Source: a virus
Virus record (IMG/VR): IMGVR_UViG_3300009157_000046
Coordinates: 1 to 23,455 of that record
DNA length: 23,455 nt
Reading direction: 5' to 3' (one strand)
The translations under genes were made by a program, and so were the position numbers. Under the pieces are notes generated by a model. It had not been told where the DNA came from. It searched no databases and saw only the letters and a list, made by a program, of their open reading frames with translations. Positions 10,287 through 14,560 of the stretch are shown piece after piece (within the stretch, counting starts at the first letter, position 1; each line of letters opens with the position of its first letter).

Positions 10287-10298
10287 CGTGGCCCCATG
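10284..10298 (+). promoter_or_regulatory. Candidate leaderless promoter of the modification cassette
   Basis: TAACGT (10284-10289) fits TAnnnT and is followed by exactly 6 bases before the ATG at 10296. No Shine-Dalgarno sequence precedes this ATG. I see no convincing -35 at the standard distance, and the first three bases are the stop of the upstream gene, so this site is the weakest of the four leaderless candidates. Confidence 0.4.
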
Positions 10299-11036
10299 AC
10301 CTCAGCCCCGACGCAACGCCGCCTGGAGTACCTGCCGCTCCGCCAGATCATGAAGGCGCCCCGCAACCCCAACGGCCACGACCTCCCCGCCCTCGCCGCC
10401 TCGATCCGCCGGCACGGCTTCGTGGAACCAGTCGTGGTGGACGAGAGGACCGGGTTCCTGGTCGGTGGCCACGGCCGCCTCGACGTGCTCGCCGAGATGC
10501 GAGACGCCGGGGAGCATCCCCCGGAGGGCATCGTGGAGCAGGAGCGGACCGACCGGGTTCCCGACGACGCCCCGGTCGAGTGGCTGGCGCCGACAGTCCT
10601 GGGGTGGGCCAGCCGCTCAGACGCCGAGGCCGAGGCGCTGCTGCTCGCCATGATGCGCCTCCCCAAGCAGCCCGTCGCCGCCATCGACCTGTTGGCGACC
10701 ATGCTGGACGAGCTCTCAACGTCAACCGACCTCGCCCTGGAGGGCACCGGCTACACCGCCGACGACCTCGATGACCTCCTGGCTGGCCTGTCCGAGAGCG
10801 CACCCCTGGACGTGGCGTTCGGGACCAACCGTGACTCCTACCCGGAGCCCTCCTACGGGGAGCGCACCGAGAACTACCGCAACAAGCAGGTCCGGGCGAT
10901 GGTGTTCGACTACCCCCTGGACGATTACGCCCTGGTGGCCGAGATGGCGGCCAAGGCCCGCCCGGCCTTCGGCGTGCAGTCCAACGCTGAACTGTTCCAG
11001 AAGATGTTGCACGAGTGGGTCGAGGCCCACCCATGA
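10296..11036 (+). CDS. ParB-like nuclease-domain protein of the modification cassette
   Basis: 246 residues. The N-terminal ParB/sulfiredoxin-type domain shows LPLRQIMKAPRNPNGHD, then LAASIRRHGFVEPVVVDE and the hallmark GGHGRLDVLAEM (about 57-68), with GxxR spacing. Phage ParB-like proteins of this type are often found next to DNA methylases or other base-modification enzymes and may give DNA targeting or CTPase/nuclease activity. The C-terminus (about 200-246) contains KQVRAMVFDYPLDDYALVAEM, a tail seen in many such phage proteins. It starts the five-gene modification run and is ATGA-coupled to the dioxygenase. Confidence 0.75.
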   Translation: MTSAPTQRRLEYLPLRQIMKAPRNPNGHDLPALAASIRRHGFVEPVVVDERTGFLVGGHGRLDVLAEMRDAGEHPPEGIVEQERTDRVPDDAPVEWLAPTVLGWASRSDAEAEALLLAMMRLPKQPVAAIDLLATMLDELSTSTDLALEGTGYTADDLDDLLAGLSESAPLDVAFGTNRDSYPEPSYGERTENYRNKQVRAMVFDYPLDDYALVAEMAAKARPAFGVQSNAELFQKMLHEWVEAHP

Positions 11037-12034
11037 CCGACCTCGGCACCGCCCCCGCCGTCACCGTCGTCCTGCCGCCGCTTGACCCCGACGCCCGAGT
11101 GCGGGCCGACAAGCTCGTCCGCCAGGGCGCCCCAGCCGAGCCTGACGGAGCGATCATCAAGGCCCCGTGCCTCGTGAAGGCCGGTGACGAGACCGTGGCC
11201 GTGGTCTTACGGCTCCCGCCAGGCCAGCTCGCCTACGCCCGCAGATCCTTGTTGGCTTGGCCGTTCGACACCTCGGCAATGCGGGCGTCAGGTATCAGAT
11301 CAAACAGCCGAAGCTTTGGGTATCTCGCCCGGCGGACGGTGCTGCAGCGGGATGGCTGCCGGGCCTGTCAGGGCTCGCATAAGTCCCCTGATGCCCACGA
11401 TGGAATCGTCGCCCAGGCCGCTGTCCTGTCGGCCATGTTCGCCGCCGCCGCCCCGGACCTCGCCGCCCGAGACGAGGAGGCCGCTCAGATCGTTCGTCCC
11501 GAATGGCGCCTGGGCGGCAGCCAGTGGACCTCCGGCATCGCCAACAGCACGTCCGTCCTGCCGTACCACTACGACCGCAACAACCTGAAGCCGATTTGGT
11601 CGGCGATGATCGTGGTGCGCCGGGGCGTCCGGGGCGGCTACCTCCACGTGCCCGAGCTCGGCGCCTCGTTCCAGTGCCGGGACGGTGACGTGGTGTACTT
11701 CCCGGGCTGGCGCTTCGTGCATGGCGTGACCCCGGTCAAGGTGATCGAGCCCGACGGCTACCGCATCTCCGCCGTGTTCTACGCCGTGGCGTTGATGCGA
11801 GAATGCCTTGCCCCCGAGGAGGAGATGGCCCGAGCTCAGCGGGGTCGGACCATCAGAGAGGCTGACACTCGGGGGGCGATGGACCGCCCGAACCTCGGCC
11901 ACTACATCGAAGCCTACGACAAGCGCAAGTCGGGGTGGCTGCTGTGCGCCTGCGGCCATCGGGCCGAGCTCCACCAGACCCCCGACCAGCGCTGCGCCAC
12001 GCCCCACTGCGAGTGCGACGGTTGGACCGAGTGA
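11033..12034 (+). CDS. TET/JBP-like 2-oxoglutarate/Fe(II) dioxygenase acting on DNA bases
   Basis: 333 residues, ATG in the ATGA overlap. The double-stranded beta-helix has H179-Y-D181 (LPYHYDRNN), then GGYLHVPELGASFQCRDGDVVYF, H230 (FVHGVTP) and R244 (YRISAVF). This gives the iron triad HxD...H plus the 2-oxoglutarate arginine. The upstream SRSFGYLARR and RDGCRAC segments (92-112) are typical of phage TET/JBP proteins. JBP enzymes oxidise thymine to hydroxymethyluracil; TET enzymes oxidise 5-methylcytosine. The C-terminus (305-328) adds a zinc module CxCGH....H...C....CxC. The kinase and transferase-like neighbours favour thymine as substrate, but cytosine is not excluded. Residues about 59-128 use atypical codons. 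Confidence 0.8.
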   Translation: MTDLGTAPAVTVVLPPLDPDARVRADKLVRQGAPAEPDGAIIKAPCLVKAGDETVAVVLRLPPGQLAYARRSLLAWPFDTSAMRASGIRSNSRSFGYLARRTVLQRDGCRACQGSHKSPDAHDGIVAQAAVLSAMFAAAAPDLAARDEEAAQIVRPEWRLGGSQWTSGIANSTSVLPYHYDRNNLKPIWSAMIVVRRGVRGGYLHVPELGASFQCRDGDVVYFPGWRFVHGVTPVKVIEPDGYRISAVFYAVALMRECLAPEEEMARAQRGRTIREADTRGAMDRPNLGHYIEAYDKRKSGWLLCACGHRAELHQTPDQRCATPHCECDGWTE

Positions 12035-12942: not shown

Positions 12943-14009
12943 CCCCCGAGGAGGCCGCCCGCTTCATGAACGCCTACGCCCGCCGTCACGCCGCCGGGGC
13001 GTTCGCCACGCCGACGGCCGCAGAGCTCGGGGGCGCCAACGTCCGCCTGTGGGAGGACAGCGAGGGGCGCCGCACGGTGGCCGTGGTGAAGCGCCTGACC
13101 CGGGACAGCGTGCGGACCGACTGGCTCGGGGAGCCGTACACGCTGCCTCGTGGGGCTGTCATCGTCACCCACCTCGCCCGGGATGACGGCGCCCCCGTGC
13201 CCGCCGACCTGGACGAGTACCACGCCGTGTTCGGCTACGCCGACGACCCGGAGCTGACCGCCGGGATGCTCCGCTGGGGCCGGGAGCGGATGGCCACGAG
13301 GATCAGCGCCGCCTCCGAGATCATCACGTGCTGGGGGTGGCAGGGCACCGGCCGCCCGACCCCCGGGCCCGACGGCGCCACGGTGGTGCCGTTCGCCGAC
13401 GTGTCCGAGGGCATCTTCGCTGACGCCCTCGCCGAGCTCGCCCACGTCTCGGGGTGGGCCGACGACTACCCGTACTACAACCGGGACGGCTCCTGGTCGG
13501 CCCTGTCGCTGCGTGGGTTCGATCCCGACCCGGCCTGGGGCGTGAAGCCCGCCGAGATGGGCCGCAAGTGGAACGACGCCCACCCGGGAGCTCTGACCCG
13601 CACGTGCGTGTGGACCGACCTCGCCGACCGATGCCCCATCATGCGGGCGCTCGCCGAGGCGCTGCCGTGCCGAGGGCTTGAACGGGTGCGCCTGATGCGC
13701 ATGACCCCCGGGAAGCTCCTCCGGCACACCGACATCACCGACAAGGCCAGCGGCCTCCGTGACGGGCAGATCGCCCGCTTCCACCTCCCCCTGGTCACCA
13801 ACCCCCAGGCCGTCATGCACAACTGGGAGCTTGACGGCACCTGCTCGGACACGCACCTGACCGCCGGGACGTGGTGGTACCTGGACGCCCGCAAGCCCCA
13901 CGCCGTCACCCAGGGCGGCACCACCGACCGCATCCACCTCGTGGCGGACGTGCTGTGCGCCCCGTCCACCCGTGACCTTCTGGAGGCCGCATGCTCGGCT
14001 GCTACCTGA
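12939..14009 (+). CDS. Second 2OG/Fe(II) dioxygenase, Asp/Asn beta-hydroxylase type, with extra N-terminal domain
   Basis: 356 residues, ATGA-coupled. The C-terminal half (about 240-345) carries GKLLRHTDITD (H263, D265), RFHLPLVTN, AGTWWYLDARKPHAV (H321) and R331 (DRIHLVADV). This is the aspartyl/asparaginyl hydroxylase-like jelly roll with the complete iron and 2-oxoglutarate residues. The first 150 residues form a separate alpha/beta domain of unknown identity (VAVVKRLTRDSVRTDWLG, HAVFGYADDPELTAGMLRW). An acetyltransferase-like fold is one possibility, not established. Its place between the transferase-like gene and the kinase suggests it hydroxylates the adduct on the base, or the donor molecule. 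A protein substrate is the alternative. Confidence 0.7.
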   Translation: MTPEEAARFMNAYARRHAAGAFATPTAAELGGANVRLWEDSEGRRTVAVVKRLTRDSVRTDWLGEPYTLPRGAVIVTHLARDDGAPVPADLDEYHAVFGYADDPELTAGMLRWGRERMATRISAASEIITCWGWQGTGRPTPGPDGATVVPFADVSEGIFADALAELAHVSGWADDYPYYNRDGSWSALSLRGFDPDPAWGVKPAEMGRKWNDAHPGALTRTCVWTDLADRCPIMRALAEALPCRGLERVRLMRMTPGKLLRHTDITDKASGLRDGQIARFHLPLVTNPQAVMHNWELDGTCSDTHLTAGTWWYLDARKPHAVTQGGTTDRIHLVADVLCAPSTRDLLEAACSAAT

Positions 14010-14560
14010 TCGGCTCCCCCGGGGCTGGCAAGTCCACCCTCATGACCGAACTGACCCGGGGCCTGCCGTTCATCGAGGGCAAGGTCGGCCTGGTCGCCTT
14101 CAAGCACTACCGGGACGCCGACGGCCGCACCGTGGCGGCAGAGCTCGGGGCGCCCCACCCCCTGTTCCCCGGCACGGACCGCCTCTCGATGGCTGTCAGC
14201 CCCGACGCCATCGCCTGGGTGCAGGCGGCCCCCGCCCCCGTGGTCATCGGCGAGGGCGACAGGCTCGCCACCCGCCCGTTCCTGGAGGCGTTCGCCGAGG
14301 CGTGCGATGGGGGCTTCACGCTGCTCTGGCTCGACACTCCCGAGAACACGGCCCGGGCCCGCTCCGCCGCCCGGGGGACCGCCCAGAACGAGGGGTGGCA
14401 GAAGGGGCGCCGCACCAAGGTCAACAACCTGGCCGCCGCTCTCCCCCACGTCCGCCTCGACGGCACCATGCGCCCCGAGGTTCTGGCTGAGCACGCCCGG
14501 GCCGCCTCCCCCGCCCTCCAGGCTCTGGGCAGGCTCGCCCGGGTAGACGGCGCAGCCTAA
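13991..14560 (+). CDS. P-loop kinase, 5-hydroxymethyluracil DNA kinase-like
   Basis: 189 residues, ATG overlapping the dioxygenase by 19 bases. Walker A GSPGAGKST (8-16), the FPGTDRLSM segment (59-67), a Walker-B-like strand VVIGEGDRL (84-92) and a LID-like basic segment NEGWQKGRRTKVNNLA (133-148) match the nucleotide-kinase-like P-loop proteins linked to DNA base hypermodification. Characterised relatives phosphorylate 5-hydroxymethyluracil in DNA, giving the activated ester that the transferase uses. It ends at a TAA that is itself part of the P3 operator. A free-nucleotide kinase is the alternative, but the gene context favours the DNA kinase role. Confidence 0.75.
   Translation: MLGCYLIGSPGAGKSTLMTELTRGLPFIEGKVGLVAFKHYRDADGRTVAAELGAPHPLFPGTDRLSMAVSPDAIAWVQAAPAPVVIGEGDRLATRPFLEAFAEACDGGFTLLWLDTPENTARARSAARGTAQNEGWQKGRRTKVNNLAAALPHVRLDGTMRPEVLAEHARAASPALQALGRLARVDGAA

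Follow-up and report, generated by a model that had tools for sequence, protein, structure and literature searches.

A thymidine hypermodification pathway has already been described for phages (PMC11955845, which cites Lee et al. 2018 and 2022). The same paper presents the cassette of phage Tonitrus as a five-gene thymidine hypermodification system. A phage-encoded 5-hydroxymethyluracil (5hmU) DNA kinase and the restriction resistance of modified thymine are also documented (PMC6449724, PMC7653180). The stretch analysed here, called the window, is the virus record IMGVR_UViG_3300009157_000046 of IMG/VR, a fragment of 23,455 bases with a G + C content of about 71% that belongs to a virus of actinobacteria. 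It carries a five-gene cassette of this general kind, in which a hydroxylase-like Fe(II)/2-oxoglutarate (2OG) oxygenase takes the gene position held by a flavin-dependent lyase in related cassettes, and the new feature of the locus is this fourth gene. The original prediction, which read the five genes as a post-replicative pathway of oxidation, activation and conjugation, missed both that the general pathway was already described and that the hydroxylase stands in for the lyase.

The five open reading frames were confirmed where they had been placed, all on the + strand and with overlaps of 4 to 19 bases between neighbours:

10296 to 11036, + strand: gene 1, ParB-like protein of 246 aa (PHROG 620 ParB-like, E 5.7e-23)
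11033 to 12034, + strand: TET/JBP-type Fe(II)/2OG dioxygenase of 333 aa (PF12851, Tet_JBP, E 9.7e-10, over the curated cut-off)
12031 to 12942, + strand: amino acid:DNA transferase (AADT) with the aGPT-PPlase fold, 303 aa, GTG start (PF18724, ADDT, E 1.2e-6)
12939 to 14009, + strand: gene 4, Asp/Asn/Pro-hydroxylase-like Fe(II)/2OG oxygenase of 356 aa, oxygenase domain at about residues 142-347 (PF05118, Asp_Arg_Hydrox, E 1.9e-8)
12939 to 13352, + strand: N-terminal domain of the gene 4 protein, about residues 1-138, GNAT-like fold in an AlphaFold 2 (AF2) model
13991 to 14560, + strand: P-loop kinase of the 5hmU DNA kinase type, 189 aa, Walker A GSPGAGKST (PF18751, Ploopntkinase3, E 4.6e-29)

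The proposed family assignments were borne out, with the Pfam matches of genes 2-5 all exceeding the curated cut-offs, while gene 1 falls below the cut-off of Pfam ParB_N (E 0.18) and its label rests on PHROGs. The AADT and the kinase, for which unrelated families would have spoken against the prediction, matched PF18724 (28.9 bits, cut-off 26.2) and PF18751. The residues named earlier for the TET protein (H179, D181, H230 and R244, the HxD...H...R pattern of a double-stranded beta-helix domain) are invariant in an alignment with six relatives, and a search with the TET profile extends to Naegleria Tet 5cg8 (E 0.003). The kinase was aligned with phage homologues, among them one from Wooper that is annotated as 5-hmU DNA kinase. 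The window contains a predicted 5hmU-supplying enzyme (TET), a PF18751 kinase and a PF18724 AADT, as systems of the known type do. Some names attached to these families are likely misannotations, and those in PHROGs (6059 and 800) look old: there TET is called 'queuine tRNA-ribosyltransferase' and the kinase 'terminase small subunit'. The kinase also goes by the name 'adenylate kinase', and the AADT encoded by gene 3 of Mycobacterium phage Prince (L002, 1852-2826) is named 'DNA glycosylase'.

Among cultured phages, a tblastn search found the hydroxylase once, in Mycobacterium phage LilMcDreamy, whose genes 1-5 encode the ParB-like protein, TET, AADT, hydroxylase and kinase in the same order, left of the terminase. 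Between LilMcDreamy and the window the hydroxylase is 43% identical, the AADT 55% and the TET just 34%; the LilMcDreamy AADT scores 47.4 bits against PF18724. The LilMcDreamy cassette sits at the genome end adjoining the terminase, and its genes 2-4 are annotated as hypothetical. Hydroxylase-bearing loci numbered 15 in a first IMG/VR search and 28 in a later one, and profile searches recovered the order ParB-TET-AADT-hydroxylase-kinase in most of the hydroxylase contigs that cover the stretch. The gene order, whose recurrence in other phages had been suggested as a check, is shared by LilMcDreamy and many independent viral contigs and is therefore not due to chance. The TET gene follows the kinase in three loci (L128, L130 and L137), and TET and AADT are fused in one open reading frame in another (L129, 2464-4452). 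In the damaged locus L136 (7160-8453), a frame-shifted TET is joined to the C-terminal half of the hydroxylase and the AADT is absent, either through a deletion in vivo or through an assembly artefact. No relative of the hydroxylase was confirmed by a pattern scan that covered the genomes of 84,980 bacterial and archaeal species, and in the collections searched members of the family turned up solely in these phage cassettes.

Elsewhere among the AADT cassettes, a DAO-like protein is encoded between the AADT and the kinase or behind the kinase. The profile of eight such proteins matches the PDB entries 8z2o and 8z79, 'Flavin-dependent lyase' (E 6e-14). The hypothetical cassette protein of Tonitrus also matches the flavin profile, but it had helped to build that profile, so that independent support for the flavin identity comes from the match of the other members to 8z2o. 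Among 46 distinct AADT loci, the flavin protein occurs in 30, the hydroxylase in 13 and neither of them in three, and no locus has both; a profile search did not find the flavin protein in 11 further hydroxylase loci, nor did the flavin-profile search detect a DAO-type protein beside the AADT in the window and the hydroxylase cassettes. We take 8z2m/8z2n and 8z2o/8z79 to be gp46 and gp47 of Pseudomonas phage PaMx11, of which the gp47 lyase reportedly acts on DNA. At one further locus (L061, 2315-4458), the AADT is followed by a weak match to a PALP-type pyridoxal-phosphate enzyme (E 0.004), which may be a finishing enzyme of a different sort.

The profile of the AADT family matches PDB 25qc (E 6e-16) and 8z2m, 'Glycinyltransferase' (E 2e-10); the profile was required, as the window AADT alone found no match in the PDB with phmmer. 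The AADT tree placed all hydroxylase-linked sequences on one side of a single branch, with one label change, support of 99/97 and recovery in 100% of bootstraps. The TET and kinase trees, in contrast, take five changes of the hydroxylase label, at least three of them forced by well supported branches, and a single hydroxylase clade was rejected by the approximately unbiased (AU) test (p-AU 5e-12 for TET and 1.6e-4 for the kinase). The LilMcDreamy TET, for example, groups with TETs of flavin-type phages. The transferase and the hydroxylase are thus inherited jointly, and because the AADTs form one clade but the TET and kinase trees reject one, the two genes have moved as a pair between cassettes with differing TET and kinase. 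The TET-AADT and hydroxylase-kinase genes are also adjacent pairs, yet they are without such coupling.

The comparison of hydroxylase-linked (n = 19) with flavin-linked AADTs (n = 30) showed 15 positions that are fixed differently. The former, the window AADT included, carry E25, A28, Q156, E160 and H247 (window numbering), fixed or nearly so in the 19 sequences, while the flavin-linked AADTs and the solved 8z2m and 25qc have D25, Y28, W156, K160 and D247. Both groups conserve D23, P26, R92, R93, G152, G154, R155, E163, K167, S183, G185-R187, E228, T229, C232, D233, G240, Y242, Y243 and G245. As five residues common to the solved AADTs are replaced, the pattern suggests that hydroxylase-linked AADTs use a different amino acid, which is probably not glycine; given these changes, a glycine-derived product was rated lower.

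The putative iron- and 2OG-binding residues of the fourth protein (H263, D265, H321 and R331) show no variation across 12 sequences, and PF05118 is matched by 12 of the 12 family members. In the AlphaFold model (predicted local distance difference test, pLDDT, 86.6), the region of about residues 120-347 superimposes on proline 3-hydroxylase with Z 16.7 over 158 residues at 2.5 Å, followed by cis-4-hydroxylase (Z 16), 7v4f (Z 15.4), a non-heme beta-hydroxylase of nucleoside-antibiotic biosynthesis, and human AspH (Z 15). The gene 4 protein has the fold and the HxD...H...R active site in common with these enzymes, but it differs from them in sequence (about 20% identity), in its extra GNAT-like N-terminal domain and in its phage DNA-modification setting. 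Since the closest oxygenase folds in this comparison act on proline or aminoacyl groups, the gene 4 enzyme is predicted to tailor the appended amino acid. The N-terminal 138 residues modelled alone with AF2 gave a pLDDT of 90.9, and nearly all the structural matches listed for them are to GNAT acetyltransferases, with a Z of up to 9.9 over 125 residues. The domain is tentatively regarded as GNAT-like and probably non-acetylating, because the Foldseek E is just 7e-3 and the acetyl-CoA motif [QR]xxGx[GA] is absent in 17 of 19 sequences, the other two having isolated, non-aligned matches. A separate GNAT acetyltransferase gene, with an RLGGVA motif at the expected place, accompanies a flavin-type AADT cassette at locus L031 (3703-4992); the profile comparison detected no homology between it and the N-terminal domain.

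Taken together, the preferred reading, which we hold with modest confidence, is that the cassette hypermodifies thymine after replication through TET, kinase, an AADT that uses a probably non-glycine amino acid, and finally the hydroxylase. The TET/JBP enzyme would oxidise the methyl group of thymine to 5hmU in the phage's own DNA, and the P-loop kinase would convert 5hmU to phospho-5hmU. With the AADT, the amine of an amino acid would displace the phosphate to give aminoacyl-thymine, whose attached amino acid would then undergo C-H hydroxylation by the gene 4 enzyme, leaving hydroxylated aminoacyl-thymine. The analysis shows the family membership, the conservation of the active sites, the gene order, the exclusion of the flavin enzyme and the joint inheritance of transferase and hydroxylase. 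We infer each reaction from the enzyme families; the substrates, the sequence of reactions and the final base are likewise predicted. The ParB-like protein, which stands first in most related cassettes, might serve in DNA binding or targeting, although this is a guess. The post-replicative scheme of the original prediction is supported in this form, as is its suggestion that a second oxygenase could give an undescribed base; its description of AADT-type enzymes as replacing pyrophosphate is probably inexact, as the leaving group in the PaMx11 work is said to be phosphate.

Several observations weigh against this reading. Among solved structures, the oxygenase fold comes nearest to free-proline hydroxylases, so that hydroxylation could precede transfer, and the hydroxylase-linked AADT clade by itself reaches the solved AADTs weakly (25qc, E 4e-4). 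The AADT gene adjoins that of the hydroxylase, and hitch-hiking could explain some of the co-transfer. Distances correlate among all four enzymes within the hydroxylase cassettes, and the pair is not singled out; this correlation was not discriminating and was dropped as a sign of pairing. Kinases of the same family also occur in phages without TET or AADT: at the locus left of the terminase, the Bclasvirinae phage Derpp has the kinase only, with no TET or AADT in its genome, and the kinase family alone is therefore no proof of hydroxymethyluracil chemistry.

The same final base would arise in another order if the hydroxylase acted on a free amino acid, which the AADT then attached to phospho-5hmU. 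The free L-proline cis-4- and 3-hydroxylases as best structural matches and the differing signature residues of the linked AADT clade both agree with this order, but the gene 4 protein has an extra conserved N-terminal domain and occupies the position of a lyase, PaMx11 gp47, that is said to work on DNA; we give the free-amino-acid order a minor but real chance. We attach a small probability to oxidative N-dealkylation, in which the alpha carbon is hydroxylated and the amino acid lost, so that 5-aminomethyl-dU is left and the job of the flavin lyase is done by other chemistry. Fe/2OG enzymes often dealkylate amines, and the strict mutual exclusion with the flavin-dependent lyase at the same gene position is what such a replacement would produce. 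An unchanged product, however, needs no change of the transferase, yet these AADTs form a separate clade with at least five signature residues replaced. It is very unlikely that the hydroxylase-like protein modifies a protein or is inactive and that the cassette makes plain aminoacyl-thymine: PF05118 does take in protein hydroxylases such as human AspH, but the iron and 2OG residues are invariant in the 12 sequences, and the family is confined to the phage cassettes in the collections searched, none being confirmed in the species genomes.

As to the starting base, neither a thymidylate-synthase-family gene (PF00303) nor a C5-methyltransferase (PF00145) was found in the complete LilMcDreamy genome (71.6 kb) or in the 23 kb window fragment, and thymine itself, oxidised by TET, is for this reason the favoured start; the window TET is accordingly listed as a predicted thymine hydroxylase with 5hmU in DNA as its product. 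The lack of the synthase gene led us to reject a hydroxymethyl-dUTP route, as had been foreseen, whereas methylated cytosine, named earlier as an equal starting base, was rejected for want of the methyltransferase in these two sequences. A cassette that makes a hypermodified cytosine, with 5-methylcytosine as the substrate of TET, is most improbable. Some phage TETs act on 5-methylcytosine, and among four long hydroxylase contigs G003 encodes a C5-methyltransferase at a distance of about 10 kb and G004 shows a match below the threshold, but the kinase and the AADT belong to thymidine hypermodification families.

Outside the five genes, no consensus-type promoter-like site was seen near the cassette. 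A DUF932 protein (PF06067, E 1.5e-41) is encoded directly downstream at 14624-15673 and is not annotated in the LilMcDreamy cassette. The replication genes at 105-9799 include Mu Gam-like, Sak4-like, O-like initiator, DnaC-like loader, HNH and helicase genes, and no phage polymerase was seen in the window fragment. At 16185-16982 (+ strand), a 265-aa protein has a signal peptide, a Thr/Pro-rich stalk, LPHTG, a hydrophobic stretch and a basic tail, with PF00746 just over the cut-off; by these features it reads as a phage-encoded LPXTG cell-wall-anchored surface protein.

A literature search whose coverage left the main pathway papers outside returned no Asp/Asn-hydroxylase-like enzyme in such a pathway, and the fourth step is likely, though not proven, to be new. 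Virions of LilMcDreamy and of the window virus may contain an undescribed base, a thymine with a non-glycine amino acid whose side chain is hydroxylated by a dedicated Fe(II)/2OG enzyme, which would be the first amino-acid hydroxylase known in a DNA-base pathway; we advance this tentatively. Such an enzyme would add a class to the known ways in which phages sculpt thymine, and the presence of the five-gene set in a cultured mycobacterial phage makes the predicted base directly accessible. At the locus left of the terminase, the Bclasvirinae offer a series of five cassette stages, from the kinase of Derpp through ParB-TET-kinase in KayaCho and ParB-TET-AADT-kinase in Prince to ParB-TET-AADT-flavin-kinase in Phelemich and ParB-TET-AADT-hydroxylase-kinase in LilMcDreamy, and all these phages grow on Mycobacterium smegmatis. 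The glycinyltransferase 8z2m/8z2n is a homologue of the window AADT, but its flavin-dependent lyase partner (8z2o/8z79) is absent in the window. Likewise, the actinophage thymidine hypermodification cassettes of Tonitrus, Wooper and Phelemich share the ParB-like protein, TET, AADT (aGPT-PPlase2) and 5-hmU DNA kinase with the window, while their fifth gene encodes a flavin (DAO-type) protein and not an Fe/2OG hydroxylase. Between the two kinds of cassette, the finishing enzyme and its transferase are swapped as a pair, and the oxidase and the kinase stay.

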